A stretch of 64,000 nt of DNA from Nitrospira sp. (GTDB taxonomy: Bacteria > Nitrospirota > Nitrospiria > Nitrospirales > Nitrospiraceae). The position numbers and the translations under genes were made by a program. A model generated the notes under the pieces. That model saw nothing but the letters and a program-made list of their open reading frames with translations, was not told the origin of the DNA and made no database searches. Shown here piece after piece: positions 44,265-63,049 of this stretch; the first letter of the stretch is position 1; every line of letters starts with the position of its first letter. Where the stretch lies: positions 130,870 through 194,869 of the forward strand of contig SWDM01000023.1 in NCBI GenBank assembly GCA_005116835.1. Reading direction: 5' to 3'.

Positions 44265-45707
44265 ATGGCTGAGATCTGCGTTGTCTATCTCTCGGACGAC
44301 GAACCCATCGTTGAACAGCTGGTTGCCTTGCTTCGAAGAGATTGGGATGTTTGGTGGGCCCGAGATATCGCCCATGGAGATTGGGAAGAGGTTGTTCGAA
44401 AAGAAATTCCTAAGTCGCTAGCTCTTGTCCCTGTGCTGTCCCGGCACACTCGAGGTGAGCGCAAGAATATCCTTAAGGATGAAATGCAGCTTGCCAAATC
44501 CCACAACAAGCCGATACTCCCTTTTGTAATTGGACCCGGAGAGATGCCTTTGGGATTTGGAGGATTGCATTACACGAAGGCTCATGATTGGAATGGCAAG
44601 GATACAGACCGAGGTTACCAACAGCTTAAGGCGAAGATAACTAAGACAATAGGAAACGGGCGGAACGCACTACGAGGGACTGAGCGGGCGAAACAGCTTG
44701 TCGTGAGAGGGAAAATCCTTCAGCTCCCTGCTTTTGTTTTTTCGCTCTCCTCCCATGAAACTCAAGTAACCCCGAAGGAAGGCGCTCCCTTGCTGCACTT
44801 CCTTGAGCCTGGGGCGGCGCTTGTCTCTGCCTATGATGCGTGGAAGTACTACTCGCGCGATCGCCTCTTCAACTCGATCATGACCAAAATTCGTGAGTCT
44901 CAGGATGTCTTATTCCTCGATTCTGGCAACTATGAGGCGTACCGGAAGAACGACCGCTATGCACTCAAGAAAAATCCTAAGGGCTGGCACAAAGATGATT
45001 TTCGAGAGACTGCCTTAAAGCTGAAACCTGACCTGGCGTTCTCTTTCGATACGATCAACCCAAAGGGAAAACAAGACGAAATTGTGTCGCAAGTTGTTGC
45101 GACTTTTCAGGCTGACGACCGGGCAATGTCAGAAAGAGATTTTTCGCTATGCCCAATCATCCATCTTCCTAAGGGAACCCGTGCCCAGAATGCGGCCGGT
45201 ATTGTGGCAGGCGTTGCTCGTGAGCTTGATCCTCTGATGCTTGCTATCCCTGAGCGAGAATTGGGTGATGGTCTGTTGGAGCGGGCCAGAACGGTTCGGG
45301 ATATTCGAAGAGCACTTAATAGGCTCGGAAAATATCACCCTCTCCACCTGCTGGGTACAGGCAATCCTCTGTCCATGGTCGCCTTGGCAGCCGCTGGTGC
45401 CGATTCCTTCGATGGACTTGAATGGTGTCGAACCATTGCTGATTATGAACGGGGCTACCTTTTTCACTTTCAGCAGTTCGAGTTTTTCAGTGAGATTCGT
45501 CTCCATCGAATTCAGGACCCGCGCATTCGCAATCTGGTCGAAAATAAAAATGTTTCGTACAGTCTGAAGGCGTTGGGATTCAACATCGATTTCTTTAAAG
45601 ACTGGACGCGAAGTATGCAGAACATGATTCATGGCGGACAGATTGAGCATCTCCTAACGAGTGTTCCATATATCGGACCGCAGATATTCAAGGAACTCTC
45701 AAAATGA
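44265..45707 (+). CDS. TIR domain fused to a tRNA-guanine-transglycosylase-like domain
   Basis: The 480-residue product has an N-terminal TIR domain (about residues 3-130; ICVVYLSDDEP, DVWWARDIAHG, and Glu73 in KDEMQLA at the position of the NADase glutamate). It is followed by a TGT-type barrel (about 150-470). The TGT landmarks are FLDSGNYE (217-224), FSFDTIN (259-265), HLLGTGNPLSMVALAAAGAD (361-380) and SFDGLEW (381-387), which covers the nucleophile region. The zinc cysteines of tRNA-modifying TGTs are missing, as in DNA-type or Cap10-type relatives. It starts a coupled operon with OGG- and QueC-like genes. A TIR fusion to TGT is unusual. Confidence 0.85.
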   Translation: MAEICVVYLSDDEPIVEQLVALLRRDWDVWWARDIAHGDWEEVVRKEIPKSLALVPVLSRHTRGERKNILKDEMQLAKSHNKPILPFVIGPGEMPLGFGGLHYTKAHDWNGKDTDRGYQQLKAKITKTIGNGRNALRGTERAKQLVVRGKILQLPAFVFSLSSHETQVTPKEGAPLLHFLEPGAALVSAYDAWKYYSRDRLFNSIMTKIRESQDVLFLDSGNYEAYRKNDRYALKKNPKGWHKDDFRETALKLKPDLAFSFDTINPKGKQDEIVSQVVATFQADDRAMSERDFSLCPIIHLPKGTRAQNAAGIVAGVARELDPLMLAIPERELGDGLLERARTVRDIRRALNRLGKYHPLHLLGTGNPLSMVALAAAGADSFDGLEWCRTIADYERGYLFHFQQFEFFSEIRLHRIQDPRIRNLVENKNVSYSLKALGFNIDFFKDWTRSMQNMIHGGQIEHLLTSVPYIGPQIFKELSK

Positions 45708-46417
45708 CTTCTTTCTCGTCTGTATTCACAGCTCGGCGCTTTGATAGCACGGTCCGTACACTTTGTCCGCTCATAGAGAGCGAAGTTTCAAGGCATATGA
45801 CTCGATTCATTCGCGAATACGAACTGAGACGGGAGTTGGTCGGCTGCATCCTCGGTAGTCAAGTCCGCTACGAAATGGCGGTTGAGGCAGTTGAGAATCT
45901 AGAATCTGCGGGACTTCTCGATGATGCATATTGGTGTCAGCGGAATGATAACGAATTTGAAGGCGGTGTCTTTATGGTGCTCGCTGGTCGAAGTAACGCT
46001 TCTCGACACAAAGGTAGCTATCGATTCCCTGGTGTTCGAGCCAAGCAGTTAGCTCAAGTCAGGAGTGCTTTGGCCAGGGCTCCTATTCTGAGCAGACTCG
46101 CGGTCAGCAGTTGTCCCTCGTACCTGCGACAACAGCTCATCGAGGATATCTCCGGAATCGGTCCCAAGCAGGCCAGCATGTTCCTTCGCAATATTGGGAA
46201 AAGCTATGACCTCGCTATCCTAGACACTCACGTCCTACAATTCATGTGCATGCAAGGCCTTTTATCAATAGAGGATGCTCGCATTGGCACGATCAAGGAA
46301 TACGAGAAAGCGGAGCGGGTTGTGATTCAGTACGCAGCAAGTATTGGCTATCCAGTGGGGTATTTGGACTGGGCCATCTGGGCTACCATGAAGGCAGCAC
46401 GGGAGCTTGAGCCATGA
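45704..46417 (+). CDS. HhH-GPD DNA glycosylase/lyase, OGG-like
   Basis: The 237-residue product has a helix-hairpin-helix followed by the catalytic aspartate, IEDISGIGPKQASMFLRNIG and LAILDTHVLQFM. Lys155 and Asp174 are 19 residues apart, the same spacing as Lys249 and Asp268 of human OGG1. VRAKQLAQV earlier in the protein is also OGG-like. This group includes the ancillary OGG protein of type IV CBASS (Cap11). Its start overlaps the TIR-TGT stop by ATGA, and its stop overlaps the QueC start in the same way. Confidence 0.87.
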   Translation: MTSFSSVFTARRFDSTVRTLCPLIESEVSRHMTRFIREYELRRELVGCILGSQVRYEMAVEAVENLESAGLLDDAYWCQRNDNEFEGGVFMVLAGRSNASRHKGSYRFPGVRAKQLAQVRSALARAPILSRLAVSSCPSYLRQQLIEDISGIGPKQASMFLRNIGKSYDLAILDTHVLQFMCMQGLLSIEDARIGTIKEYEKAERVVIQYAASIGYPVGYLDWAIWATMKAARELEP

Positions 46418-47004
46418 GCATTGTGACATTAGTCTCAGGCGGTCTGGATTCTACGGTCATGGCCGTGCTAACAAAGGAGGAAGGATTAACTCAATTCCCG
46501 CTATTCATCGACTACGGGCAACTGGGCCGTGACAAGGAACTTCAAGCTTGCCGGGCAAACTTCAAACGGCATGGCCTGCCTGAGCCAGTGATCGCTCCGC
46601 TGAGCGGTTACGGGAGCCTCCTTTCCTCGGGGCTCACCGATCAGAACAAGCACATTCTGATAGATGCGTTCCTCCCTTGTCGCAACCTTATGTTCCTCAC
46701 CGTGGGTGCGGCCTATGCGTTTCAATGTGGCGCCTCTGCCGTAGGGATAGGGCTACTCGATGAAGCCTTTAGTCTGTTTCCTGACCAGACCAAGGGTTTT
46801 CTCTCTGATGCCGAAGCGCTGCTATCGAGAGCGCTGGGCAAGTCCATCAAGGTGATCACTCCTCTGATCACATTTTCAAAAGCAGAAGTCTTGAAAATTG
46901 CTAAGGCCAAGGGAATAACTGGAACGTATTCATGTCACGCCGGAACGGAGACCCCCTGTGGTAAATGTGTGGCGTGCCGCGAATACATCGGATTGGAGGT
47001 GTAG
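46414..47004 (+). CDS. QueC-like 7-deazaguanine enzyme (Cap9 type)
   Basis: QueC converts 7-carboxy-7-deazaguanine to preQ0 with ATP and ammonia. This 196-residue relative has the PP-loop LVSGGLDSTVMAVL (SGGLDS at 8-13). It also has FLPCRNLMFLTVGAAYA and all four zinc cysteines in SCHAGTETPCGKCVACRE (174, 182, 185, 188). It is somewhat shorter than housekeeping QueC. Its place between OGG-like and poly-Gly TIR genes, with no queD, queE or folE nearby, points to the ancillary Cap9 group of type IV CBASS and away from tRNA queuosine synthesis. Confidence 0.88.
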   Translation: MSIVTLVSGGLDSTVMAVLTKEEGLTQFPLFIDYGQLGRDKELQACRANFKRHGLPEPVIAPLSGYGSLLSSGLTDQNKHILIDAFLPCRNLMFLTVGAAYAFQCGASAVGIGLLDEAFSLFPDQTKGFLSDAEALLSRALGKSIKVITPLITFSKAEVLKIAKAKGITGTYSCHAGTETPCGKCVACREYIGLEV

Positions 47005-47006
47005 CC

Positions 47007-47495
47007 ATGGGAGGTGGCGGAGGTGGCTCAAGCAGCATCGGAAATATTCAGTCGCTGGTGGACAAGGCTAAGCAGGAACTGAGGAAGAGCGAACAGCAGG
47101 GAGAGAAGAGGAATGTCTTTATCAGCTTCGCCTATGAGGACATCAATGAGGTGAATCTACTCCGCGGTCAGGCAAAGAATGAGAACTCCCCCATTGAGTT
47201 CAACGATTGGTCGGTTTCAGAACCGATCGACAGCGAGCGAGCCCCTTATATCAAACAAAAAATAGCGGAGCGAATCCAGCAGTCGTCGCTAACCGTGGTG
47301 TTTCTTTCCAATGCAACGGCGAAGAGTAAATGGGTGGCATGGGAGATTGAGGAAAGTCTCAAAATGGGCAAACAGGTTCTAGGCGTTTACCCCAAAGATA
47401 ACAAGCCAGCTTCTTTTCCAGAGGCCATTAATGCGAATAAGATTAAATGTGTGACATGGCCAGATCTGGCAAGCACCATCGCGAAGCTTAAGTAA
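47007..47495 (+). CDS. ThsB-like TIR protein with N-terminal hexaglycine
   Basis: The 162-residue product begins Met followed by six glycines and three serines. It then has a short helix (NIQSLVDKAKQELRKSEQQ) and a TIR-like DUF1863 domain (about residues 35-160). That domain has RNVFISFAYEDINEVNLL, FNDWSVSEPI and KSKWVAWEIEESL, where Glu113 aligns with the catalytic glutamate of ThsB-type TIR proteins. The ATG at 47007 is 7 bases after GGAGG, which fixes the glycine-rich N-terminus. It is 2 bases after the QueC-like stop. Met before Gly is normally removed, exposing glycine. Confidence 0.88.
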   Translation: MGGGGGGSSSIGNIQSLVDKAKQELRKSEQQGEKRNVFISFAYEDINEVNLLRGQAKNENSPIEFNDWSVSEPIDSERAPYIKQKIAERIQQSSLTVVFLSNATAKSKWVAWEIEESLKMGKQVLGVYPKDNKPASFPEAINANKIKCVTWPDLASTIAKLK

Positions 47496-47506
47496 GTGAG
47501 TTGCTG

Positions 47507-49351
47507 ATGGTATCCCGGTTGAGCACTACGCTGTCGCGAGCCGTCGATCGTGTTTTTGGATACGATTTTTTCCTTTCTTACTCCCACAAAGATGGAAAGA
47601 ATTATCCGAGGCTTCTCAAAACCAGGCTTGAGCAAGTCGGATTCAAGGTGTTTCTCGACCAGACTGAATACGTCCCGGGAGACGATCTACGCCGCGAGAC
47701 AAGACGACAGGTTAAGAAAAGCCAGAAGCTTGTCGTGATCGCCAGGACAGACGCGCTAAAATCTGTCTGGGTGAAACGCGAGGTGGAGATCATCTTGGCC
47801 AGTGGGCGCACTCCGATTCTTATCGATCTCAACAACAGTGTGGAGCGCGCATCACCGGATGCGGAACTGGCGATGCTTGCGCGCGAGCATCATTGGTTGC
47901 GCCTTATGGAGACGAGCACTGATCCCGACGGAGTTCCAACGGACTATGCAGTATCGGAGCTAATCCGTTCGTTCGGAGTAATGCGTCAGGACGTCAAGCG
48001 CCAGCAGATCTTGGGCGTAACAGCGGCTGGATTCGCCCTTATTGCCATCTGGGCAGGGTATCTTGCATGGCTGTCGAATGAACGGCGACAGGAAGCCGAC
48101 ATGAGGCTCGCCACCACGCTCGAGACCGCCACGCGGTTCGTCAACCAGACCGTGCAAATGAGCGACAAATACGGTGTTCCTCGAGAATTTGTCCTCCAAC
48201 TCCTCAAGGAGCCTGAGCAGGTTTTTCTGCAACTTGCGAAATCAGGGACTGACACGCCCGAGGTTCGACAGCGGCGGGCTCAGACCCTGCTTGATTTCTC
48301 CGACAACTACGAGGTGCTTGGCGACTCAGATCAGCGACTGGCACGAGCGCGCGAAGCGAAAGCGATTCTTGCGGAGCTCGTCAGCAAGCATCCAGACAAA
48401 GTAGACTGGCAGCTTCGTCTCGCGACCGCGTCCAGTAAAATCGGGACTGCACTGCTGTTTCGCGGTGACAGGTCTGGTGCCGATGCAGAGTACGAGGAGG
48501 CGCTGCGGCTGCGCAAAATGTTGGCGGAAGCATATCCAGAGGATCGCAAGGTCCAGCGTGACTACTCGGTGGCGCTGAACCGTAAGGGGGAGATACTAAT
48601 TGGGCTTGGCCGCTATGAGGACGCCCGAGGCTATATCCGTCGGGCGCGTGATCTGCGCAGAAGCCTGTCAGGCGTGGATCCGGAAAACCGCGAACTGAAG
48701 CGCGATATTATCGTGTGCCAGATATGGCTCGGTGACAGCTTCAAGGCTGAGCAGAGATTTGCAGATGCTCGTACGGAGTATCTGGTGGCACTCGAAATCG
48801 CAGAGAGACTTACGCGAGAGGACGAGACGAGTAAGAATGCGGCACGCGATTTCACCGTGAGCCTGAACAAGATCGGCGAGACGTATCTTGGTGAGAAAGA
48901 CGCTGCGAGCGCCAAATTTTACTATGAGCGCGCACTTCCAGTCCGTAAACGGCTGGCTACTGACGAAAGCAATCGCGCCGCGCAGCGGGACCTTTTCGTG
49001 AGCTACATTCAGCTCGGCCACATCGCGTTCTCTGGGAAGCTGACCGGCAAGGCACGGAGCTATTTCGGCAACGCACTTGAGCTTGCCGAAAGGCTGTTCC
49101 AGAAAGATCCGAATTATGCACATTGGCAGGCCGATGCAGCCGAGGCTAGAGGTTGGTATGGAATGGTCGCAGAGGCTGGAGGCGAGACGATGATCCGTCA
49201 GGCTATTGCACAGCTCGATGCCATGCGTAGAGAGGGCAGACTCGTTGCGGATCGTGAGGTGCTGATTACACAATTCAAAGGCATCGTGGCAGAACGAACA
49301 GCCGATGCTGGACAAGACAAGCCGCCAGCCTCAATACCGCCGAACCGCTGA
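47507..49351 (+). CDS. Membrane TIR-TPR protein
   Basis: The 614-residue product has an N-terminal TIR domain (about 18-155; YDFFLSYSHKDGKNYPR, Glu92 in SVWVKREVEI). One membrane segment (167-189, ILGVTAAGFALIAIWAGYLAWL) and a long TPR array (about 245-590) follow. The TPRs have repeated patterns such as NRKGEILIGLGRYEDARGYIRRA and NKIGETYLGEKDAASAKFYYERA. The TIR is cytoplasmic if the TPRs lie outside; topology is not certain. It follows the poly-Gly TIR gene by 11 bases and is probably the last gene of that operon. Base composition is richer in G+C than in the four genes before it. Confidence 0.85.
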   Translation: MVSRLSTTLSRAVDRVFGYDFFLSYSHKDGKNYPRLLKTRLEQVGFKVFLDQTEYVPGDDLRRETRRQVKKSQKLVVIARTDALKSVWVKREVEIILASGRTPILIDLNNSVERASPDAELAMLAREHHWLRLMETSTDPDGVPTDYAVSELIRSFGVMRQDVKRQQILGVTAAGFALIAIWAGYLAWLSNERRQEADMRLATTLETATRFVNQTVQMSDKYGVPREFVLQLLKEPEQVFLQLAKSGTDTPEVRQRRAQTLLDFSDNYEVLGDSDQRLARAREAKAILAELVSKHPDKVDWQLRLATASSKIGTALLFRGDRSGADAEYEEALRLRKMLAEAYPEDRKVQRDYSVALNRKGEILIGLGRYEDARGYIRRARDLRRSLSGVDPENRELKRDIIVCQIWLGDSFKAEQRFADARTEYLVALEIAERLTREDETSKNAARDFTVSLNKIGETYLGEKDAASAKFYYERALPVRKRLATDESNRAAQRDLFVSYIQLGHIAFSGKLTGKARSYFGNALELAERLFQKDPNYAHWQADAAEARGWYGMVAEAGGETMIRQAIAQLDAMRREGRLVADREVLITQFKGIVAERTADAGQDKPPASIPPNR

Positions 49352-49438: not shown

Positions 49439-49564
49439 ATGATACCCCATGTTTTTGTCGCGATGCCATTCGGCTTGAAGAAAGTCAGACAAGACAACGA
49501 GATTGATTTCAATCGCGTCTATACCGAACTGATCAAACCCGTGCCGGAGTGGCACGAAGGATAG
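49439..49564 (+). pseudogene. Truncated N-terminal fragment of a deoxyribosyltransferase-like effector gene
   Basis: This 41-residue frame starts MIPHVFVAMPFGLKKVR and continues EIDFNRVYTELIKPVPEW. It clearly matches the first 35 residues of the intact protein encoded at 49975 (LCFVLMPFGKK, VDFDSIYELLIKPAV). It then stops, and the rest of the gene is missing. A MITE lies 11 bases downstream, so insertion or associated deletion probably removed the remainder. Confidence 0.75.
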
Positions 49565-49678: not shown

Positions 49679-49974
49679 ATTGATATGGTGGCGGTACTGC
49701 GCAGCACTTGCTGAATGCAGTCCACCTTGCCCGGGCGATGATATATGGCATCTGTTGCCCTGATAGATCCATGCAACCATTACATCTACTAATCAGTGCT
49801 GCACCGAATTGACGAGAAATTGTTAGAAGGGTACACTCGCGTCGCGAGAGTCTTTGGATGCCTTAGAACCTGGGACCGAAAAGAAGTTGAGGAGGTAGTT
49901 GCACCGGCTGAGATTTTGCGTGCCCCATCCATTGGAAGACGAGCCTGTTGTTAATCCGCTCAAGTAGCTCGACC
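49679..49974. other. Non-coding stretch after the MITE
   Basis: About 300 bp hold no convincing reading frame, promoter or RNA. A short hairpin, CTCGCGTCGCGAG, is near 49838. Scattered similarity to coding composition suggests decayed gene sequence, but nothing can be named. Confidence 0.5.
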
Positions 49975-51318
49975 ATGCTGCCACTATGCTTCGTGCTCAT
50001 GCCCTTCGGGAAAAAGCCAGCTGGCGATGGCCGGTTGGTGGATTTTGATTCTATTTATGAGTTGCTCATCAAGCCTGCCGTGGTGGCCGCGGGCCTTGAG
50101 CCGTTGCGTGCCGACGAGGAGATGACCGGTGGCGTGATCCACAAGCCCATGTTCGAACGGTTGATTCTCTGTGAATACGCGGTTGCAGACCTGACGACAG
50201 CCAACGCCAATGTTTTCTACGAGCTGGGATTGCGGCATGCCGTCCGACCAGCTAGCACGGTGCTGCTGTTTGCTCAGGGAATCGGCCAATTGCCATTTGA
50301 CGTTGCGCCATTACGCGCCATCCCGTACCAACTCGGCTCTGACGGCAAACCAGCGATGAACGATACGGACCGTGACAGGCTCACTACTAGGCTTCATGAA
50401 GCCCGCGAGGTCAAAACAGACAGTCCCGTTTTCCAACTCGTGGAGGGTTTTCCCGACATCCAGCGTCTCAAGACTGATGTGTTTCGCGAGCGTGTCGAGT
50501 ATTCCAGCACACTTCGACAGAAACTGGCGCAAGCTCGCAAGCAAGGCGTTGAGGCGGTTCGGGCTCTAGAGCGAGAGATAGGGCCCATACATGATGTTGA
50601 GGCAGGCGTGGTGGTCGATCTGTTCCTTTCCTACCGTGCCGTGAAGGGTTGGGGCGACATGATTGCGCTGGGCCAGGAGATGTCGGCGCCGTTGGCGGCG
50701 ACGGTTCTCGTGCAGGAACAGTTGGGGTTGGCTTTGAACCGGGCCAATCGTGGCGAAGAAGCGGAACGAATACTGCTGGCTCTGATTGAGAGTCGCGGGC
50801 CGAGCAGCGAGACGTTCGGCATCCTTGGCCGGGTGTACAAGGATCGGTGGGAAGCAGCTCTGAAGGCCGGCGAGAAGGTCCTCGCACGCGGGCTGCTTGA
50901 AAAAGCTATCGGGGCCTACCTCAAGGGGTTCGAAGCCGACTGGCGCGACGCCTATCCCGGAATCAATGCCGTGACGCTCATGGAACTGAAAGAGCCGCCC
51001 GATTCCAGGCGCGACCAACTCATCCCGGTCGTCTCATACGCCGTGGAACGTCGCATGGCTTCCGGCAAGCCAGATTATTGGGACTATGCCACCCTACTGG
51101 AGCTGGCGGTGCTCGCCAAGGATCAGAACAAGGCTGAGTTGGTGCTTGCCAACGCACTTGCTGCAGTGCGCGAATCCTGGGAGCCGGAGACCACCGCTCG
51201 GAATCTCAGGCTGATTCGTGAGACTCGCGAGCGTCGCAAGGAGCCGTTCCAGTGGCTCAAAGAAATTGAAGAGGAGTTGGAGTGTTACCCCAAAACGGTA
51301 ATGCGTGATGGCGAATAA
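49975..51318 (+). CDS. Deoxyribosyltransferase-like plus TRAFs-binding (DUF4071) protein
   Basis: The 447-residue product starts with LCFVLMPFGKK. ERLILCEYAVADLTTANANVFYELGLRHAV follows, the pattern of the nucleoside 2-deoxyribosyltransferase/TIR-like fold (about residues 1-140). The remainder is helical and TPR-like (GRVYKDRWEAALKAGEKVLARGLLEKAIGAYLKGFEADWRDAYPGINAVTLM), as in the TRAFs-binding domain family DUF4071. Such proteins occur in bacterial conflict gene clusters. The start at 49975 is preferred over a TTG 27 bases earlier. The activity is not known; the N-terminal fold suggests nucleotide or NAD processing. Confidence 0.8.
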   Translation: MLPLCFVLMPFGKKPAGDGRLVDFDSIYELLIKPAVVAAGLEPLRADEEMTGGVIHKPMFERLILCEYAVADLTTANANVFYELGLRHAVRPASTVLLFAQGIGQLPFDVAPLRAIPYQLGSDGKPAMNDTDRDRLTTRLHEAREVKTDSPVFQLVEGFPDIQRLKTDVFRERVEYSSTLRQKLAQARKQGVEAVRALEREIGPIHDVEAGVVVDLFLSYRAVKGWGDMIALGQEMSAPLAATVLVQEQLGLALNRANRGEEAERILLALIESRGPSSETFGILGRVYKDRWEAALKAGEKVLARGLLEKAIGAYLKGFEADWRDAYPGINAVTLMELKEPPDSRRDQLIPVVSYAVERRMASGKPDYWDYATLLELAVLAKDQNKAELVLANALAAVRESWEPETTARNLRLIRETRERRKEPFQWLKEIEEELECYPKTVMRDGE

Positions 51319-51396: not shown

Positions 51397-52092
51397 ATGA
51401 AGGTTTTCCTAGGATTTTCGTTCCGTGACGAAGACAGGGAGATTGTGGGGTTGGTGGATCAGCTGATAGCCAGTCATCTTGTTGAATTGAAAACAGGAGA
51501 ACGTTTGGGAGGGGATCAATTGACTCCCGCTGTCCAACGGCGCATCGAGGACAGTGATGCACTCGTAGGTGTCCTTACCAGGCGAGACAAAAGGCAAGAT
51601 GGGAAGTGGACAACGCATCAGTGGGTGCTCGATGAGATCGGGTGGGCTAGAGCAAAGAACCGGAAGGTAATCGCTTTAGTGGAGCAGGGCGTCGACATAG
51701 GAGGAATGTTCCTATCCCATGAACACATTTCCTTGGACAAAGGCAATCCCATTCAAGGCTTGATGGCACTTTCTGACACCATCGGTCTATGGAGACGGGA
51801 GCTAGGTCGTACTGTGAAAGTCCAAATCTTGCCGGTTGCGATTGCGCAAAGAGTGGGGGATGGCGGTAATGGTGTACGGTGCCGCCACCGCCTGTGGTTA
51901 AGGGGGGCGTCTTCATCGTGGTTGGATTTGACTCCTGTGCCTGAAGCTGGAGGCACGTTTGTTTTCGTGAATGGCGTACAAGATGAGCACCTTATCCAGC
52001 TGCAAGTTCAACAGGATAGCAAGATGTGGCAGTCCGTGGCCACCTCACAATGGATTCAGGTGACGATGAAGTCCGGAGGTGTAGGCCTATGA
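51397..52092 (+). CDS. TIR-domain protein with C-terminal beta-rich domain
   Basis: The 231-residue product has a TIR-like domain (about residues 1-145). It starts MKVFLGFSFRDEDREIVGLV, and Glu80 in THQWVLDEIGWA stands in the catalytic glutamate position. The C-terminal 85 residues (RVGDGGNGVRCRHRLWLRG through WIQVTMKSGG) are strand-rich and of unknown family. The stop overlaps the pYEATS-TIR start by ATGA, so the two are translated together. It starts the second immune gene run. Confidence 0.78.
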   Translation: MKVFLGFSFRDEDREIVGLVDQLIASHLVELKTGERLGGDQLTPAVQRRIEDSDALVGVLTRRDKRQDGKWTTHQWVLDEIGWARAKNRKVIALVEQGVDIGGMFLSHEHISLDKGNPIQGLMALSDTIGLWRRELGRTVKVQILPVAIAQRVGDGGNGVRCRHRLWLRGASSSWLDLTPVPEAGGTFVFVNGVQDEHLIQLQVQQDSKMWQSVATSQWIQVTMKSGGVGL

Positions 52093-52814
52093 CAATACAG
52101 ATTAAACAACAAGCGGTCCCTAAAGGTAAGGATTGGTGGGAATGGTCGGTGTGGCTCGAGGGGGCCAAAAAAGAACTCGAGGGCATTGATCATGTTGTAT
52201 ACACACTCCATCCAACCTTTCCCAATCCTGTTGTGCCGGTTACCAACCGGGCGACAGGATTTCGATTGGATTCCTCTGGGTGGGGAGAATTCACTATTTA
52301 CCTTCAAATCAAGAATAAAGATGGCTCGACGAGCAAGCGACGGCACTACCTGAAGCTTATTGATTCAGGTATCAATATGGCCAGATCGAATCAAAAGAGC
52401 GGAAAGCTCTCTTCGGCGAAGGAACCGTCACGTCGCACGGTTTTCGTTTCCGGCGGCACAAGAGATTTAGATGCCGTTCACGCAGTTCGCGAGGCGTTAT
52501 CGGGACAGGACGTCGAGGTCGTGGGACCGCAGGATGTCAAGGCTGGACAGCAATGGCAAGGAACCGTAAGCGACATGATTGCACGAGCTGACTCTGCTGT
52601 TTTCGTGATCTCTGGCCGACCGAATCTTTGGATGAACGAGGAAATTAAAGCTGCCATCAAAGTGGGTGTGCGGCATATTCTTCCCCTCGTAATAGGCGCG
52701 AACGTGGAGTTGCCTGATATTTTGCGAGACATCAATGCTGTCCGCGTTGAGAATTCGTCGGATGTGGCAAACATTACAGAGACGATCCTTAAACAATCGC
52801 TGGGGAGGAAATGA
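52089..52814 (+). CDS. pYEATS-TIR protein
   Basis: The 241-residue product has an N-terminal prokaryotic YEATS domain (about 4-92; DWWEWSVWLEG, IDHVVYTLHPTFPNP, GWGEFTIYLQIKNKDG). A linker and a TIR domain (about 116-235) follow, starting RRTVFVSGGTRDLDAVHAV and with Glu184 or Glu185 in WMNEEIKAAI. YEATS folds in eukaryotes read acyl-lysine; the ligand of pYEATS domains is not established. The start at 52089 overlaps the upstream stop. This is probably a sensor-effector pair in one chain. Confidence 0.85.
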   Translation: MTIQIKQQAVPKGKDWWEWSVWLEGAKKELEGIDHVVYTLHPTFPNPVVPVTNRATGFRLDSSGWGEFTIYLQIKNKDGSTSKRRHYLKLIDSGINMARSNQKSGKLSSAKEPSRRTVFVSGGTRDLDAVHAVREALSGQDVEVVGPQDVKAGQQWQGTVSDMIARADSAVFVISGRPNLWMNEEIKAAIKVGVRHILPLVIGANVELPDILRDINAVRVENSSDVANITETILKQSLGRK

Positions 52815-52857
52815 TGCTTCGTCACTATTGCTAGGGGCTAAGCATGCATGGAGGAAA

Positions 52858-53766
52858 ATGATGGCTATCGCATCGAGATCGGCTCTCAGAAATGGAAGCG
52901 TGTGTTTGGGACTGTTTGGTATGTTCTTGGTGATGGGCTGTGGGCTCACGATTCAGCAAAAGGGGGCAGTGAATCAATTCGCCACTGCTACGCGTGACCT
53001 ATCCGTCTCAGCCCAGGCTGAGTTTCAGCGGAGCCGTCAAGATGTCGTCGAGATGAATCGCTTTCGGCTCGAGCTTGGTGATCCGATGGCCGACGTGAAC
53101 AAACTGGATTCGTTGCTAACCCTCGATCGAACCCGAGATCGTATCATGGCTCTTCAAGCTCTCGAAGACTATGGGGGATTGTTGAACAAACTCGTTGGTA
53201 TTGTTCCTGAGGGCGAACTTCTTGAAGCCAGCAACACTTTTGTCGGAAGCCTTAAGCAAGTCAAGGGGGTGCAGTTGACCGACCAGGAAGCGGGAGGGAT
53301 CGGAAAGGCCGTGGCCGCAGTCGGTGGGCTCTATGTTGAATACAAAAGAGCTGCGGCGGTTCGCCATGTGGTGGAAACGACACATGCACCGGTTCTTGCC
53401 GTGATCGATCTCGTGAAGAAAGACTTCGATCCGAACTCGGATTTCTGGAGTGCAGGTTACCGGAAAACGGCAGTAGACTTAAGTGGTCATGCGGAATCCC
53501 TTGATCTCCTATATCCTCCAAAGGATCTCCTGTCTAAGCAGAGCACCCAGCGGGCCAAAACCCTTGCTACCGAAAACATGAACAGATTTAGCGCTATCTC
53601 CGTACAGATCATGACTCTTGTCAGCACACTTGCTGAGGCACAAAAAAATCTTCGTCTTGTGCTGAATCCATCCGAACTCAATGTTCAAAGTATCGACCAT
53701 CTTGCAACACAAGTTCGAGATTTCAAAACCATCTACGGCCTTCTACGAAACGAAGCGCCACGCTGA
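52858..53766 (+). CDS. Lipoprotein of unknown function in immune gene run
   Basis: The 302-residue product has a lipoprotein signal (SVCLGLFGMFLVMGCGLT). A long helical body follows, with NQFATATRDLSVSAQAEFQRSRQDVVEMNRF and a C-terminal segment rich in charged helices. I recognise no family. GGAGG precedes tandem ATG codons at 52858 and 52861, and the frame further upstream is not used. It lies between the pYEATS-TIR and small helical genes on the same strand. An envelope-anchored sensor is one possible reading. Confidence 0.7.
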   Translation: MMAIASRSALRNGSVCLGLFGMFLVMGCGLTIQQKGAVNQFATATRDLSVSAQAEFQRSRQDVVEMNRFRLELGDPMADVNKLDSLLTLDRTRDRIMALQALEDYGGLLNKLVGIVPEGELLEASNTFVGSLKQVKGVQLTDQEAGGIGKAVAAVGGLYVEYKRAAAVRHVVETTHAPVLAVIDLVKKDFDPNSDFWSAGYRKTAVDLSGHAESLDLLYPPKDLLSKQSTQRAKTLATENMNRFSAISVQIMTLVSTLAEAQKNLRLVLNPSELNVQSIDHLATQVRDFKTIYGLLRNEAPR

Positions 53767-53780
53767 GCAGGAGGATGACT

Positions 53781-54164
53781 ATGCCCACAAGCCGCAAGAC
53801 ACGGAAGCGCCAAACTGCCACTCGTAAACGGAGTCTGAGCCGAGGACTTGGTGAACAGCGAGGGCTCGGACAACTTTTGCTCGACACTGTCGAAAATATC
53901 ATTGAGTTGATGAGGCACACTCAAGATCCAGACCGTCTCAAGGAACTGAACAGCAAAAGAATCGCGCTCTCGAAGGAAGCTGGCCGACTCATTGATGCCA
54001 CCCTTGATGCATCGAGTGCCGAATATCGGTCTGCTACCTTCGCACTGGAGGAAGCCGCAGGTACGATTCGTGGAGCCATTAAGGGACTTGAGGCAGTCAA
54101 GGATGCCATCCTGAAAGCGGCTAAGGCGCTGGAACTGATTGTCAAGGTGGTATCAATCGCGTAA
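53781..54164 (+). CDS. Small helical hypothetical protein
   Basis: The 127-residue product has a very basic N-terminus (SRKTRKRQTATRKRSLSRG). Amphipathic helices follow (LGQLLLDTVENIIELMRHTQ, AAGTIRGAIKGLEAVKDAILKAAKALELIVKVV); the last is hydrophobic enough to interact with a membrane. There is no family match that I know. The start at 53781 is 6 bases after AGGAGG. It lies 14 bp after the lipoprotein gene and 30 bp before the metacaspase gene, so it may be a partner or substrate of that protease. Confidence 0.65.
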   Translation: MPTSRKTRKRQTATRKRSLSRGLGEQRGLGQLLLDTVENIIELMRHTQDPDRLKELNSKRIALSKEAGRLIDATLDASSAEYRSATFALEEAAGTIRGAIKGLEAVKDAILKAAKALELIVKVVSIA

Positions 54165-54194
54165 CGCTCACTCTCTCGGTGAAAGGATCGTTAT

Positions 54195-55031
54195 ATGGCA
54201 AAGCGAGCTGTGCTCATTGGTATCAATCGGTATCAGATCCCCGGATCTGATCTGAGGGGTTGTGTCAATGACGTCAAGAATCTCCAGCAAGCGCTCACCA
54301 CGTACTATGGATTTTCAAACCAGGACATTGCGTCCCTCACCGACCTGAAGGCGACGAAGAAGGCCATGCAGTCGGCGATTAAGAAGCTGGTCACCGGTGG
54401 AAAGAAGGGCGATGTCCTGCTTCTACACTATTCAGGCCATGGGGCGAACGTGCCCGACGACAATGGTGATGAAGCGGATCACCGAGACGAGATATTGTGC
54501 CCAACCGACCTCGATTGGAATGACCCATTGCGTGACGACTGGCTCCGTAAGACATTCAATAAACTTCGATCGGGGGTGAGCCTCACGGTGATCATGGACT
54601 GCTGCCACTCAGGAACCAACACTCGCGTGTTCACTCCACCGGATGCTCCCATAAAAGAACGGTTCCTCCCCTGTCCGTTAGATTTGATGGCCAGTGAGTC
54701 CGGCAGGAAACTGCGTGGAACGCTTCGCGGTCAACTGGGAAAAGCTCCGCGAGGGCGCAAAAGAAAGAGCGATATCGTCCACGCCGATATTCAAGAGCTG
54801 CTGATCACCGGCTGCCGTGATACTCAGACCTCCGCCGATGCGCAAATCGGTGGCACCTTTAATGGTGCCTTGACCTATTACCTGGTCGAGTCGATTAGAG
54901 AGACCAAAGGCAATCTAACCTACCGAGAGCTGCATCAACGAACCGTCGCGAAACTCAAGAGCAATGAGTACGATCAAGTTCCGCAACTGGAAGGGCGACG
55001 TACGTCCTTTGATCGTCCATTTCTCAGTTAG
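54195..55031 (+). CDS. Metacaspase-like peptidase, family C14
   Basis: The 278-residue product is a caspase-fold protease. It starts AKRAVLIGINRYQIPGSDLRGCVNDV. The catalytic histidine is in LLHYSGHGANV (His82) and the catalytic cysteine in VIMDCCHSGTNT (Cys137). The C-terminal portion has ITGCRDTQTSADAQIGGTFNGALTYYL, typical of type I metacaspases. These enzymes usually cleave after Arg or Lys. It lies in a row of TIR and CHAT genes, which suggests a role in triggered proteolysis. Confidence 0.92.
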   Translation: MAKRAVLIGINRYQIPGSDLRGCVNDVKNLQQALTTYYGFSNQDIASLTDLKATKKAMQSAIKKLVTGGKKGDVLLLHYSGHGANVPDDNGDEADHRDEILCPTDLDWNDPLRDDWLRKTFNKLRSGVSLTVIMDCCHSGTNTRVFTPPDAPIKERFLPCPLDLMASESGRKLRGTLRGQLGKAPRGRKRKSDIVHADIQELLITGCRDTQTSADAQIGGTFNGALTYYLVESIRETKGNLTYRELHQRTVAKLKSNEYDQVPQLEGRRTSFDRPFLS

Positions 55032-55101
55032 CAGAGCTGTGCGATGACGCTATGACATTCCTGATGTTCGTCACCCATCCTTACTGCCTAAAGGAGTTCC
55101 C

Positions 55102-58100
55102 ATGAGTATTCAGCTGCGTATTGCCGGTCGGCCGACGTCGCCAGCGGAAGCAAGTGCAGCCGTTCGAGGAGATTCTCTCTCCGGACGAAGAGAGCAGCCC
55201 GATACGCGTCTGCTGGATGCTGTGGACGTGCTGGGCGCGTTCGAGATGTACCCGAAAGATCGTGCGGCATCGGAGAAGCCAACGATGCTTGAAGCCGAAG
55301 ACGATGACTTGATTGAATTCGTGCTGGAAGATGGCATCTCTGTGTGGACGTCGGTGGCTGCTCATCGAGAACGGCAACGCCGATTGAAGCCCGGTGTGCA
55401 GACGGCGAAGGAGCTGGATATCGACTTGGTTATCTCCACGCCCGCATCGAGCAGGGGACTGGTGAGCGATATCGTGACCGGCGCGGTACGAATTCTCCGG
55501 CTGAAACGAGACGAGGTGTGGGAACAAGCAAAAGATCCCACGCAGTGGCCGGCCTGGATAAAGCCGTACGGGGTGGCGACATTCGAGAAATTGGGGGCGT
55601 GGCTGACGGCCAAGTTGATCATCTGGTTTATCGAGAGAAAGATTCGTCCTGAAGAAGGGCTCTATCGGTGGGTCAAGCCATCGGCTGAAGACGGCCCTTC
55701 GCTCATTGCTCCAGGGAGTATTCCCTCCGATGCACATGTCCTTCTCTTTATTCATGGAACGGCCTCCAACACCATGGGGAGTTTCGGCGCGTTGCATACC
55801 GACGAGGCCTCGTCTGAATGGGACACACTCACGCGAACATTCAAAGATCATATTTACGCGTTTGACCATCGCACCTTGAGCCAGAGTCCAATCGACAATG
55901 CCGTGATGCTGGCGAACGCGCTTCCGGACGGCGCGCAAATTTCTCTGGTGTCACATTCACGGGGAGGGCAGGTGGCCGACCTGTTATGCCTACGAGAGTT
56001 GTCCTCCGAGCAGGTCAATCGGTTTCATCGAGAAGGCGACAAATCTCGCCAAGCAGATGAACATGACCGTCGACAGCTGGCTGAGTTGGCAAAGATCCTC
56101 CGTAAAAAGAAGTTTCGGATCGTGCGGCTCATTCGGGTAGCCTGTCCGGCTCAAGGGACATTGCTGGCCTCGGAGAATTTGGATCGTTTTCTCTCTGTGT
56201 TGACCAGCCTCATCGGGCTGATTCCTGTCGTGGGGCAGTCCCTGATTTACCAGGTTGCAAAACGCATCACGCTCGAAGTGGCTAAAAGCCGGTGGGATCC
56301 TTCGGTGATTCCAGGGGCCGAATCGATGGTTCCGCAATCGCCGCTCGTCGCATTACTCAATGCTCCGGACGTGCAGGGAGGGGGAGCCCTTGGCGTGATC
56401 GCTGGGGACATTGAGGACGTGAGCTGGTTCAAACGGTTGGGCACATTCATCACCGACAGGTTTATATATGACAATCAAGACAACGATTTGGTCGTCAATA
56501 CCAATTCAATGTTTCAGGGAGTGCCTCGAAGCGCAGTCTCTCGATACATTTTCGATCAGGGATCCGATGTCTCCCATTTTCGATACTTCCGAAATTCGCG
56601 CACGCGTCATCTGTTGGTGCAGTCGATTACGAACGCAGGGGAGCAATGGCCTGCGGAATTTCGCTTGCTCGATGAAGCCAAGGTTGCTCCGGTTCCCATG
56701 CTGCGTTCCATTCAAACGAGATCGGGGGCGAGCCAGCCTGTTGTCTTCGTACTCCCTGGAATCATGGGATCGGAACTACAAGCCAACGGCGACGATGTCT
56801 GGCTGAGCTATTTGAGCCTCTTCCTCGGCCATATCGACAAGATTGCGGTGGATGCACCTAATGTGGAGGTCAATGGCCTCGTCAGCACGTACTATCGTGA
56901 CCTCTGCAATTATCTGGGCGATACACATGAAGTCATTCCCTTCGGCTACGATTGGCGTCATTCAATTACACGCGCCGCTTCTAAGCTGGCGGACGAAGTG
57001 AAGAAGGTGGTGGCTCGGACAGGTGAACCAATTCGGTTCATCGCCCACAGCATGGGTGGTCTCGTGGTACGGCGGCTCATCAAAGACTTTCCAGATTTGT
57101 GGGAGACACTGTGCAAACGGGAGGGCGCTCGATTCGTCATGCTGGGGACGCCCAACCGCGGGTCCTATGATATGGTGGAGTCACTGGCTGGCATGGCGAA
57201 AACTGTCAAACAGCTGGCCTTGCTCGATGTTACCCATTCGATGAGTGAAATCGTCGCGATTGTGTCTGCCTACCAAGGGGCGCTGGAGCTCTTGCCTCAA
57301 GATGAAGGGGAATATTTTACCTCTCAAAAATGGACGGAACTTCATCCGCTGACGGAATCCAAAGTTCAGATCAAGCCCCAAATACTGCAAGATGCCAAGG
57401 CCGCGCTTGCCGATCTTCCTGAACGGATTCCCCATGCGGAGTGCGTGCGTTACGTGGCGGGGTGGGCGCCCAAGACCGTGTGTGGAGTGAAGGTCGAAAA
57501 CCAACGCCTCTCCTTTCAGGCAACGACGGCGGGCGATGGCCGTGTGACCTATAAAGCGGGTCTGCTTCCGGACATTCCTGTGTGGTATGTCGATGCCGAG
57601 CATGGCGACTTGGCGGACCACAAGCCGGCGTTTCCAGCCTATCGCGACTTGCTTGAGCGAGGCGTGACCAATCAGCTTTCTACCACACCCTTGAGCGCCG
57701 ACCGAGGCGGCGAATCGATCTTCGACTACGAGCATGAACCGGTGTTGTACCCGACAGCATCGGATTTTGAAGCAGGCCTGCTCGGGAAGCGGCGAAAAGC
57801 ACTGAAAGTACGCACTTCCGAGAAGTTGCAGGTGTCGGTGCTGCACGGCGATCTGATTCACACCAACCATCCTATTCTGCTCGGTCATTACCAGGGCGAC
57901 ACGATTTTCGGGTCTGAACAGCTCGTGGACCGTTTTTTGGTCGGAAATTCTCTATCCCAACGCTACAATTTGGGCCGTTATCCAGGGCGAACGGAGACGG
58001 TTGCCGTTGTGCTGACCCAGCCAAACGACGTTCAAACAGCCTTTCGTATCCGACACGGGGCGATCGTGATTGGCCTCGGCAAATGGGGTGAATTGACACC

Positions 58101-60741
58101 CTCGGTGCTCACCCAAGCCGTGCATCATGGCGTGATGGAGTATTGTGTGCAATTTGCCCAGTGTTGTGGTTCGACGGAAGCATCGACGATCTCGACCGGT
58201 CTCACCATCAACAGTTTACTAATCGGATCCAATACGTCGGCGAACATTGCCGTCGAGGATTCGGTGAATGCGATTGTACGAGGAGTAATTCTTGCCAATC
58301 GCGCCCTGATGGAACAGAACCATGCGTTTCCGAGAATTACACATGTTCAGTTCATTGAGCTGTATCTGGACGTGGCGATTGATGCGGCAAAAACGGTGCA
58401 TCGCCTGGCCAAGCGCATTGAGCGTGACCTTCAGGCTGAGATCGACGTGGCGACGTGGTTGAAGAAGGGGATTGGGGGGCGGACGAGGTATGTCCCATCG
58501 AGTACGCGGGGCTATTGGCGTCGCTGGACGGTCTCTGCGGTTCATGATGCCCCGGCTCCTGCCCCCTGCATCCTGTCTCCGGTGTTGAAAGATCGGCTCC
58601 GCATAACCCTTCAAGACGAGAAGGTCAATGATCCCAGAGTTCTGAATGCTCTCCTAGATTTGGCTTTCAAAGACGATGGCCCCGTGCGTCGCCATCCGCG
58701 CAAGCTTCGTTTTCTTGCTCTGTCGGATCGCGCCCGCGCTGAAGTGATTGTGGAGGAAACTCAACCGGAATTGATCGCTCAGCTCATTCAGCGTTCGATC
58801 ACCTCCACAGCGTTCAGACGGGATATCGCCAAAACGCTCTTTGAACTGTTGATCCCATTGGATCTTAAGGATAGCCTCCTCAACCAAGACCGTGTGGTAT
58901 TGGTCCTTGACGACGTGACAGCAAACTATCCTTGGGAACTAATGATCGACGTTGACCAGCCGCTGTGCATTCGGATCGGTATGGTTCGGCAGCTGGAAAC
59001 AGCCGACTACGAAGAGCGTATCCGAGATACGACCGCAACCAACGTCTATGTGGTTGGAAACCCCCTTACTCCTTCCAATTATCCGACGTTGCCCGGTGCT
59101 CAGAAAGAAGCAGAACTTGTCGCGTCATTACTGAAGCCTCACTATGCCGTCAACCATTCAAGCCAACGGCTTGGCGCCCTCGAGGTGCTCAACCAGCTCT
59201 TTGCCCAGCCCTATCGGATCATCCACATCGCCGGGCATGGCTCTTACAACGAAGCGGAGACCGAATTGTCTGGGGCGAAGGCTGGTGTGGTGCTCGACAA
59301 CGGACTCTTTCTCACCGCGGCGGAAATCGCCAAGCTGGACCCGATTCCGGAATTGGTGTTCTTGAATTGTTGCTATCTCGGGCAAATTGGCGGCACGGCT
59401 TACAATAAGATGGCCGCCAGCATCTCGCGCGAATTGATTAGAAAAGGCGTGCGTGCAGTCGTGGCAGCCGGATGGCCGGTTCGGGACGATGCGGCGCTCT
59501 GTTTCGCGCAAGTATTCTACAAGAAGCTGCTCGACTCTCAGCCGTTCGGTCATGCGCTAAAGGAGGCGAGGCAACAGACCTGGGCCCTCTTCCCGGAGTC
59601 CAACACCTGGGGGGCCTACCAAGCCTATGGGGATCCGGATTTCCGATTGAGGCAGAATCATGACGTGCAAGTAGACAACGAGGACGTGACCGTTGCGGCG
59701 GAGGAGGTGCTCATTGCCTTGGATGATCTCGAACATCAGAGCGGTGAACCGGATGTGGCAACACTCCAGAATAAACTCGACGACCTAAAAGGGAGATGCG
59801 CAGTCGATTGGCTGAAACAGGGAAATGTTCAAGAGCAGTTAGGGAAAGTCTATGGCGAGCATGGTCTCTTTCAGGAGGCGGTCGCGCACTATAAGAAGGC
59901 CGCAGAGAGTGAAGATATCGAGAATCCGGCGACGTGTCGGGGGATCGAACAGTGGATCAATCTTGAGGCGCGGCTTGGCAAGAAGATCAACGACAAGGCG
60001 AGAATTAAAAGAGCTATCAAACGGGGCCTGGATTTACTCAAGATTGCAGAAACATCCGAGCGTTTGAGTATCATGGGCAGCGCGTACAAGAGACTGGCAG
60101 AGCTTGATGAAGAGCCGAGTGAGATCACGACGAATCTGAAAGAGGCTGCTGCGTACTATCAAAAAGCAGCGGAGAGACAAGAGCAAGAGCCATTGGCAGA
60201 TCCGTATCCGATTATGAATTGGCTGACGATAGAGGCACTTCTTGAAACATCCAAGGTGCCGTACGAATCGTGGTTGTCGAAAGCCGAGATTCTGGCACGG
60301 CAGCGTTTCCAGGCGACGCGCAAGGCGTGGGATTTGTTTGCCGTAGCGGATATCGAAGTTCTCCGAGCCATTCAGAATAAAAAAGAGTCGATAAAGAGCG
60401 CTGGGCTTGTGGGTAAGTATCGAAAGGTCTTTACCGAGTCGGCTGCGACCCAACGAGAACAAGATTCAGCTCGCAGTCAATTAGAGTTCATAATCACGAT
60501 GCGGCAGAAATTGTCTCGCTCTCGTCGCCAAAAGAGGGCGGTCGATTCGATCGGTGACGCACTGACCGATATTCGACATCATCTTGAGAAGTCGAAGCCC
60601 CAGGCGAAACCCTCGCCGATCCAACCAAAAGTAACCAGCAAGCCCTCCCCCACAAGCAAGGCACCGGCGAAACAGCCTTTGCAAAAGAGTTCCGTGCAAG
60701 AGAAAAAAACGCGTCGTCCGAAGCGTCACAGGAAGGGATAG
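55102..60741 (+). CDS. Giant double alpha/beta-hydrolase, CHAT protease and TPR protein
   Basis: The 1879-residue product combines several domains. The first hydrolase (about 210-520) has HVLLFIHGTASN and the nucleophile elbow SHSRGG (Ser286). The second, LCAT/lipase-like (about 545-760), has PGIMGSEL (552-559) and AHSMGG (Ser650). A middle region of unknown family (about 800-1250) follows. The CHAT protease domain (about 1270-1530) has HIAGHG (His1379) and FLNCCYLG (Cys1423/Cys1424). TPR-like helices (about 1560-1780) and a basic, Pro/Lys-rich tail end the protein. Coupling a caspase-like protease to lipases in one chain suggests self-activation or membrane damage. It follows the metacaspase by 70 bp. 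Confidence 0.88.
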   Translation: MSIQLRIAGRPTSPAEASAAVRGDSLSGRREQPDTRLLDAVDVLGAFEMYPKDRAASEKPTMLEAEDDDLIEFVLEDGISVWTSVAAHRERQRRLKPGVQTAKELDIDLVISTPASSRGLVSDIVTGAVRILRLKRDEVWEQAKDPTQWPAWIKPYGVATFEKLGAWLTAKLIIWFIERKIRPEEGLYRWVKPSAEDGPSLIAPGSIPSDAHVLLFIHGTASNTMGSFGALHTDEASSEWDTLTRTFKDHIYAFDHRTLSQSPIDNAVMLANALPDGAQISLVSHSRGGQVADLLCLRELSSEQVNRFHREGDKSRQADEHDRRQLAELAKILRKKKFRIVRLIRVACPAQGTLLASENLDRFLSVLTSLIGLIPVVGQSLIYQVAKRITLEVAKSRWDPSVIPGAESMVPQSPLVALLNAPDVQGGGALGVIAGDIEDVSWFKRLGTFITDRFIYDNQDNDLVVNTNSMFQGVPRSAVSRYIFDQGSDVSHFRYFRNSRTRHLLVQSITNAGEQWPAEFRLLDEAKVAPVPMLRSIQTRSGASQPVVFVLPGIMGSELQANGDDVWLSYLSLFLGHIDKIAVDAPNVEVNGLVSTYYRDLCNYLGDTHEVIPFGYDWRHSITRAASKLADEVKKVVARTGEPIRFIAHSMGGLVVRRLIKDFPDLWETLCKREGARFVMLGTPNRGSYDMVESLAGMAKTVKQLALLDVTHSMSEIVAIVSAYQGALELLPQDEGEYFTSQKWTELHPLTESKVQIKPQILQDAKAALADLPERIPHAECVRYVAGWAPKTVCGVKVENQRLSFQATTAGDGRVTYKAGLLPDIPVWYVDAEHGDLADHKPAFPAYRDLLERGVTNQLSTTPLSADRGGESIFDYEHEPVLYPTASDFEAGLLGKRRKALKVRTSEKLQVSVLHGDLIHTNHPILLGHYQGDTIFGSEQLVDRFLVGNSLSQRYNLGRYPGRTETVAVVLTQPNDVQTAFRIRHGAIVIGLGKWGELTPSVLTQAVHHGVMEYCVQFAQCCGSTEASTISTGLTINSLLIGSNTSANIAVEDSVNAIVRGVILANRALMEQNHAFPRITHVQFIELYLDVAIDAAKTVHRLAKRIERDLQAEIDVATWLKKGIGGRTRYVPSSTRGYWRRWTVSAVHDAPAPAPCILSPVLKDRLRITLQDEKVNDPRVLNALLDLAFKDDGPVRRHPRKLRFLALSDRARAEVIVEETQPELIAQLIQRSITSTAFRRDIAKTLFELLIPLDLKDSLLNQDRVVLVLDDVTANYPWELMIDVDQPLCIRIGMVRQLETADYEERIRDTTATNVYVVGNPLTPSNYPTLPGAQKEAELVASLLKPHYAVNHSSQRLGALEVLNQLFAQPYRIIHIAGHGSYNEAETELSGAKAGVVLDNGLFLTAAEIAKLDPIPELVFLNCCYLGQIGGTAYNKMAASISRELIRKGVRAVVAAGWPVRDDAALCFAQVFYKKLLDSQPFGHALKEARQQTWALFPESNTWGAYQAYGDPDFRLRQNHDVQVDNEDVTVAAEEVLIALDDLEHQSGEPDVATLQNKLDDLKGRCAVDWLKQGNVQEQLGKVYGEHGLFQEAVAHYKKAAESEDIENPATCRGIEQWINLEARLGKKINDKARIKRAIKRGLDLLKIAETSERLSIMGSAYKRLAELDEEPSEITTNLKEAAAYYQKAAERQEQEPLADPYPIMNWLTIEALLETSKVPYESWLSKAEILARQRFQATRKAWDLFAVADIEVLRAIQNKKESIKSAGLVGKYRKVFTESAATQREQDSARSQLEFIITMRQKLSRSRRQKRAVDSIGDALTDIRHHLEKSKPQAKPSPIQPKVTSKPSPTSKAPAKQPLQKSSVQEKKTRRPKRHRKG

Positions 60742-60845
60742 GCGCGAAGAGAAGGCTTGGTAAATGGGATCTATAACAGAGAATGCGAAGATCTCAGATG
60801 GCGGCCTTCAAGTTCAGAGGTGTCTGATTCTAAGATGGAGTACGA

Positions 60846-62959: not shown

Positions 62960-63049
62960 GGCCTTTGGTCTCACATGGTGGCTGCTACTCTGCAGTTACT
63001 GTTACAACGGCTTTTTGTAAGCTATCGACGGGATGGGCTAATCCCAGCC

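Follow-up and report, generated by a model that had tools for sequence, protein, structure and literature searches.

Why are enzymes of 7-deazaguanine chemistry encoded together with two TIR domains in an operon that has no recognizable CD-NTase? This question is raised by a 64,000-nucleotide stretch of a Nitrospira sp. genome (contig SWDM01000023.1), which as a whole is called the window below. Here, four open reading frames (ORFs) on the + strand, at 44265–47495, form one tight operon encoding a TIR-TGT fusion, an OGG-like glycosylase, a QueC-like enzyme, and a TIR protein with a poly-Gly start. Our answer, to which we give a probability of roughly 0.72, is a phage-defense operon applying the 7-deazaguanine conjugation of the type IV cyclic oligonucleotide-based anti-phage signaling system (CBASS) to a TIR enzyme; both its steps and its role in defense are inferred. 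The cassette would be a new form of QueC-based defense, beside type IV CBASS and Qat, in which the TIR is the modified protein.

Relatives of the cassette were collected with a QueC profile from one genome per species (84,980 genomes). The query was QueC only, and neither TIR nor TGT was selected for. The search gave 128 relatives, and the loci of the best 80 of the 128 were returned. Together with loci from a rhizobial plasmid search, IMG/VR, and the same family, about 85 loci besides the window were available. The identical order, (TIR-)TGT, OGG, QueC, and TIR, is seen at these other ~85 loci, which represent about 14 phyla. The departures are cuts at contig ends, a few shortened or uncalled OGG or TGT ORFs, and one frameshifted TIR (L024; L numbers are our locus labels). 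The rhizobial plasmids, which are conjugative and were searched with the TGT part, carry all four genes, arranged in this way. L013 and L015 represent a single locus, and some of the copies from plasmids and from Pseudomonas are almost identical; the 85 aligned TIRs comprise 81 distinct sequences. The contig with the "Micrarchaeota" copy is 6.6 kb long and comes from a metagenome bin, and its binning may be wrong. IMG/VR contains one whole cassette (L095) and one TIR copy at a contig end (L151). A phage origin of the cassette was rejected: among the INPHARED matches listed, only canonical QueCs of ~30% identity are seen. Because the same genes appear in the same order at the other ~85 loci, the four-gene set is not a product of chance.

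A profile built from two type IV CD-NTases matches no ORF in the ~86 loci at 1e-5. The two members of this profile score >600 bits themselves; Pfam SMODS alone gives 2.5e-4 on a true type IV CD-NTase and is too weak as a detector. An overlooked CD-NTase nearby is rejected by the two-member profile. A type IV CD-NTase query against the host genome of the window, run without a positive control, found none. QueC, TGT, and OGG paired with a TIR, with no CD-NTase, form a genuine and conserved system. A preliminary description, made from the window alone, had reported the absence of a CD-NTase, had proposed a search for the gene order in other genomes, and had considered that a CD-NTase might be regular in relatives or that the genes might be randomly associated. 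In the fetched loci the order returns, no recognizable CD-NTase accompanies it, and the four genes always stay together.

In the window, ATGA overlaps join the TIR-TGT gene to the OGG gene and the OGG gene to queC, and the poly-Gly TIR starts 2 bases past the queC stop. An alternative, longer ORF call for this TIR starts at 46965, inside queC. The genome is near-complete (3.94 Mb), and the closest relative of its cassette is from a Nitrospira bin. Promoter and terminator scans gave no signal above chance level. Much of the preliminary description holds at this level: the coupling of four genes agrees with the ORF coordinates, the domain calls (TIR-TGT, OGG, QueC, and ThsB-like TIR) with Pfam and PADLOC, and the intact catalytic residues of OGG and QueC with Lys155/Asp174 and with SGGxDS and four Cys, respectively.

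The start of the last TIR carries the argument. It reads Met-Gly-Gly in 85 of 85 aligned copies, Gly2 and Gly3 being present in all, and positions 4–14 are Gly/Ser-rich and variable. The start codon sits −14 to +21 bases from the queC stop in these 85 copies. Since the choice of start leaned towards Gly at position 2, the presence of MGG within the first 70 residues was used as a control. It is found in 82 of 84 cassette TIR ORFs versus 6 of 1026 other ORFs at the same loci, and none of the 26 other TIRs at these loci has MGG near the start. The two exceptions are L017, with a TTG start, and the frameshifted L024. In the AlphaFold2 model, residues 3–12 are disordered (predicted local distance difference test, pLDDT, <50), followed by a helix and the TIR fold. 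The best solved match is the B. cereus TIR 8fz9, and ThsB comes next. All 85 copies keep Glu113, and its counterpart in the alignment with ThsB (6lhy) is the Glu of WVRYE.

The precedent is type IV CBASS. Its CD-NTase carries the motif MGGS, and Cap9, a homologue of QueC, attaches 7-carboxy-7-deazaguanine (CDG) to the N-terminal Gly; the product, N-terminal 7-amido-7-deazaguanine (NDG), is bound by Cap10, which has a TGT fold (PMC11996544; PMC13279940). In qatABCD, the partner QatB begins with MGTS, and its Gly2 is required (PMC13279940). NDG substrates are described as having a disordered tail. In the loci of true type IV CBASS that were fetched, the CD-NTase starts with MGGSGGGG (L014) or MGGSGGGF (L012). 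Taking together the MGG start, the precedent of Cap9 and Cap10, and the Cap10-like TIR-TGT, the cassette TIR most likely stands in the place of the CD-NTase as the deazaguanylation substrate. It is predicted to be also an NAD-cleaving or signaling enzyme, with Glu113 as the candidate catalytic residue. The preliminary description had flagged the poly-Gly TIR but had missed that MGG is the motif modified by a QueC-family enzyme in type IV CBASS.

In the QueC-like enzyme, SGGxDS, YGQ, PxRN, and Cys174/182/185/188 are invariant or nearly so among 87 copies. Phe122 and Asp124 are both present in 87/87, within the motif Phe122-x-Asp124-Gln125. In Cap9, Tyr115 stacks on the base and Asp117 reads the base edge, and both are lost in QatC (PMC13279940). 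Asp124 of the cassette QueC corresponds to Asp117 of Cap9, and Phe122 takes the place of Tyr115. Because the Asp is kept and Phe replaces Tyr, a guanine-like base is expected as the ligand. PADLOC assigns the enzyme to QueC at 4e-25, and a profile search against PDB gives 5e-25 for canonical QueC versus 2e-13 for Cap9. Since 42 of the 50 other hosts carry a canonical QueC besides the cassette copy, the cassette QueC can be considered a specialized paralogue. The host of the window has genes for QueE (TIGR04349 above the cut-off), a QueD-like protein, a FolE-like protein, and canonical QueC, so CDG should be present there.

The TIR-TGT protein consists of a TIR domain at residues ~1–130, with putative catalytic Glu73, and a Cap10-like TGT fold at ~140–460. 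The Pfam TGT match (1.5e-5) is below the Pfam cut-off. Against PDB, its profile hits Cap10 (9ntn) at 1.8e-18, followed by an archaeosine TGT at 2e-5. When the AlphaFold2 model (pLDDT 93) is compared with solved structures by Foldseek, the Cap10-CdnD complex with NDG (9ntn) ranks first. By sequence, Cap10 is clearly ahead of the tRNA TGTs; in fold score, its lead is small. A search of IMG/VR for further Cap10 comparators found none. Glu73 is kept in 47 of 48 fused copies, and Asp219, Asp262, and Asp383 of the TGT part in 84–85 of 85. As read from the sequence, the TGT domain has no CxCxxC zinc motif, and EWCR stands in place of the canonical PTRNGR. Glu73 and Glu113 would be marks of NADase activity, judging from their families.

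The OGG retains Lys155 in 84/84 and Asp174 in 84/85 copies, and because these residues are nearly invariant it is probably an active glycosylase. The PADLOC model of type IV OGG (Cap11) does not match the window OGG, and it matches Cap11 of L014 at 2e-79; OGG as Cap11 is rejected by this model. A true type IV CBASS is encoded at L014:4105-7809, in another genome of the order to which the window genome belongs, with an MGGSGGGG CD-NTase, a SLATT_5 effector, and Cap11. The HhH motif of this Cap11 is GPATS, versus GPKQA, a catalytic-type Lys motif, in the cassette OGG. The preliminary description had seen a modification trio like that of Cap9, Cap10, and Cap11. Of this, the link between TGT and Cap10 stands by both sequence and fold; the OGG is not matched to Cap11, and the QueC forms a clade of its own.

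Two architectures are distinguished. In 46 loci, the TGT is joined to a TIR; 36 of the 46 have a PfkB-type kinase nearby, and 36 have a TRAF-binding/TPR-S protein. In the other 34 loci, the TGT stands alone; a SLATT protein with two transmembrane segments is directly upstream in 18, PfkB is found in 0, and the TRAF-binding protein in 4. The TRAF-binding/TPR-S family is within reach at 43 of about 86 loci. Besides the SLATT proteins, only this and the PfkB-type family recur widely by the cassette. In the QueC tree, the fused copies that were sampled group in a single subclade with weak support (92/52), as would fit one TIR-TGT fusion event. It seems that the second TIR and SLATT substitute for each other as partners. 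The TGT of the window is of the fused form; a TRAF-binding/TPR-S gene, probably for an accessory, sensor-like component, lies at 49948, and there is no PfkB gene.

As a separate observation, another TIR, starting MGLPRTFVGFSSTD, recurs beside the cassette at L025-L028, L032, L036-L039, L047, L053, and L088. It is often encoded with SLATT and TRAF-binding/TPR-S proteins.

From the invariant motif and the nearest enzymes, the following mechanism of a deazaguanylated TIR can be inferred. Met1 of the poly-Gly TIR would be removed, and Gly2 would be exposed. The QueC-like enzyme, with ATP, would activate CDG from the host queuosine pathway and join it to Gly2, like Cap9 on the CD-NTase. The TGT domain, a relative of Cap10, might hold the modified N-terminus, and through the fused TIR, or the adjacent SLATT in the other class, the modified TIR would meet a second TIR or an effector. 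Upon infection, the TIR pair could cleave NAD+ or make an NAD-derived signal, leading to growth arrest or activation of a nearby effector. A defense role is likely from the context of the loci, where type I restriction-modification, BREX, TIR, and caspase genes are neighbors.

Protein deazaguanylation was reported in 2025 for one defense type and is suspected in a second. If the reading presented here is true, deazaguanylation would be a portable control, which evolution has placed on a TIR enzyme instead of a nucleotide cyclase, and 7-deazaguanine chemistry would be linked with TIR immunity. It would also give a direct route to the role of the base, as a tether, a safety catch, or a phage sensor. 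In many genomes, QueC, TGT, and TIR annotations would then denote defense genes, not queuosine genes. No openly accessible paper describing the operon was found, although an earlier mention of TIR/QueC/TGT operons is possible.

Several points weigh against this reading. The cassette QueC lies outside the Cap9 clade: it forms its own clade (support 99/98), apart from canonical QueC and from the two Cap9s on a long branch, in a tree where long branches leave the deeper placement unsure and only two Cap9 sequences were used. In the cassette QueC, the Cys of canonical QueC and Cap9 (YPDC/YxDC) is replaced by Gln125 (FPDQ), and therefore its pocket is not identical to that of Cap9. The OGG, with its intact glycosylase site, is without a place in the proposed mechanism, and NAD cleavage is ascribed to the MGG-TIR group by homology only. 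The main observation that the simple model fails to explain concerns the hosts. Canonical QueC was undetected in 8 of the 50 other hosts, and among those 8, QueE (three models) was detected in only one and a QueD-like gene in three. Seven of 50 hosts are thus without detectable canonical QueC and QueE. At least one of the seven has its cassette intact: L025, the genome of an isolate. There, the base must have another source or be a different molecule.

It can be speculated, then, that the conjugation is the same and that the base is another carboxylated or phage-derived 7-deazapurine, not host CDG. If the OGG released it from modified phage DNA, or a PfkB-type kinase handled it, the cassette would be a sensor of modified DNA or of phage queuosine enzymes. 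The seven hosts, the change from YPDC to FPDQ throughout the cassette QueCs, the active-looking OGG in nearly every copy, the bias of the PfkB-type kinase to fused cassettes (36/46 versus 0/34), and the queC-like genes of many phages agree with this. Canonical QueC is nevertheless present in 42/50 hosts, the base-reading Asp and an aromatic stacker are retained as for CDG, and the seven genomes include some incomplete metagenome bins and one, L024, whose TIR gene is broken; we consider a base other than host CDG unlikely, though worth keeping in mind. It is likewise doubtful that the TIR is switched by an N-terminal nucleobase which infection supplies, by phage queuosine-type metabolism or as a base cut by the OGG, and that it would in this way sense phages with modified DNA.

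Conjugation to a protein must also be compared with modification of nucleic acids, in which QueC, TGT, and OGG would put 7-deazaguanine on DNA or tRNA and the TIRs would respond to modified or unmodified nucleic acid in a restriction-like manner. The parent families do act on nucleic acids, and the OGG retains its Lys and Asp. This is improbable, however, for a TGT that lacks CxCxxC, has EWCR for PTRNGR, and resembles most closely Cap10, a binder of a protein tail; no DpdA-type or other DNA-modification gene recurs, and the invariant MGG start would have no role. A relative of Thoeris, in which the last TIR is a ThsB making a cyclic ADP-ribose signal and QueC, TGT, and OGG are unrelated passengers, is suggested by the ThsB_TIR (3e-27) and PADLOC ThsB (7e-17) matches and by the fold matches to ThsB. 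Genes never separated in the fetched loci are not passengers, and no ThsA-like family is among the recurring neighbors, which makes such a relative very improbable. Among the 25 commonest Pfam families listed for a sample of 62 neighbor proteins, no ThsA-type effector (SIR2/SLOG, macro, or other) is found. Membership in Thoeris was rejected, as no ThsA-type family recurs. Of the hybrid of type IV CBASS and Thoeris seen in the preliminary description, QueC/TGT/OGG with a TIR and no CD-NTase remains, and "Thoeris logic" does not. A ThsB-type signal from the TIR may still be compatible with the deazaguanylated TIR that we prefer.

Compared with known systems, the cassette resembles type IV CBASS in having QueC-, TGT-, and OGG-like proteins beside an enzyme with an MGG start, in the closeness of its TGT to Cap10 (9ntn), and in SLATT proteins, which are effectors in L014 and in the stand-alone TGT class. 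It differs in that MGG starts a TIR instead of a CD-NTase, and the TGT is often fused to a second TIR; in that the QueC does not group with the Cap9 sequences used and has FPDQ in place of YxDC, and the OGG is unmatched by the Cap11 model; and in gene order, which is QueC-TGT-CD-NTase-SLATT-OGG in L014. With qatABCD it shares a QueC-family enzyme and a partner with a disordered N-terminus initiated by Gly2 (MGTS in QatB). No homologue of QatA, QatB, or QatD is seen in the window operon or among the recurring neighbors, and the cassette QueC (~196 aa) is without the extensions of QatC (~400 aa) and still has the base-reading Asp, which is lost in QatC. With Thoeris it shares a TIR of the ThsB_TIR family with the conserved Glu, but ThsB is not encoded with QueC, TGT, and OGG, and the neighboring ThsB-like TIRs seen in this analysis are without the MGG start.

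QueC "Cluster 4" with PfkB has been described (Libby et al. 2026, PMC13329287). The cassette and Cluster 4 are alike in a QueC paralogue near a PfkB-type gene, for example at L172. Cluster 4 differs in its cysteines, CH(x)5CxxCxGCxK, in the fusion of PfkB to a deoxyribosyltransferase domain, and in its separate long branch, and no TIR or TGT is reported or seen there. L172:1578-4938, in an Acidobacteria bin, encodes a PfkB-deoxyribosyltransferase fusion, a Cluster 4-type QueC, and an unannotated 223-aa protein. A nearby OGG is matched by the cassette OGG profile at 4e-23. The locus may encode a further system that conjugates a base to a protein.

Table 1. Genes and motif of the cassette and its immediate downstream neighbors (positions in the window).
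Feature	Position	Strand	Evidence or assignment
TIR-TGT fusion	44265-45707	+	Pfam TIR_2 1e-11; PADLOC TGT 1e-28
OGG-like HhH DNA glycosylase/lyase	45704-46417	+	Pfam Ogg-HhH 1.6e-23; Lys155, Asp174 present
QueC-like ATP-dependent ligase	46414-47004	+	Pfam QueC 2e-35; predicted to join 7-deazaguanine to the TIR N-terminus
MGGGGGG-TIR, ThsB-like, Gly-rich N-terminus	47007-47495	+	ThsB_TIR (PF08937) 3e-27; PADLOC ThsB 7e-17
MGG-TIR codons 1-12: Met-Gly-Gly acceptor motif (predicted), flexible tail	47007-47042	+	
TIR-TM-TPR membrane protein (TM, transmembrane), directly 3' of the cassette	47501-49351	+	TIR_2 4e-16 and TPR
MAP3K_TRAF-binding/TPR-S protein	49948-51318	+	Pfam PF13281 1e-47, PF20308 3e-23

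The TIR-TM-TPR gene starts with TTG at 47501 or ATG at 47507. The latter gives the 11-base spacing of the preliminary description, so the spacing holds, but the gene is not conserved with the cassette. It was rejected as a fifth core member, since its family is seen only in the window and not among the neighbors at the other loci. Between this gene and the intact TRAF-binding gene, at 49440-49560, lies a broken remnant of a second TRAF-binding/TPR-S-like start (MIPHVFVAMPFGLKK...). Further downstream, at 51397-62000, genes for YEATS-TIR, caspase, CHAT/lipase/TPR-S (1879 aa), and TIR-response-regulator proteins are clustered. At 62375-63832 on the − strand, a ThsB-like TIR resembling B. cereus ThsB adjoins a 260-aa protein with weak matches to Mrr-type nucleases and deoxyribosyltransferase-like proteins, and the two are possibly a further defense pair.

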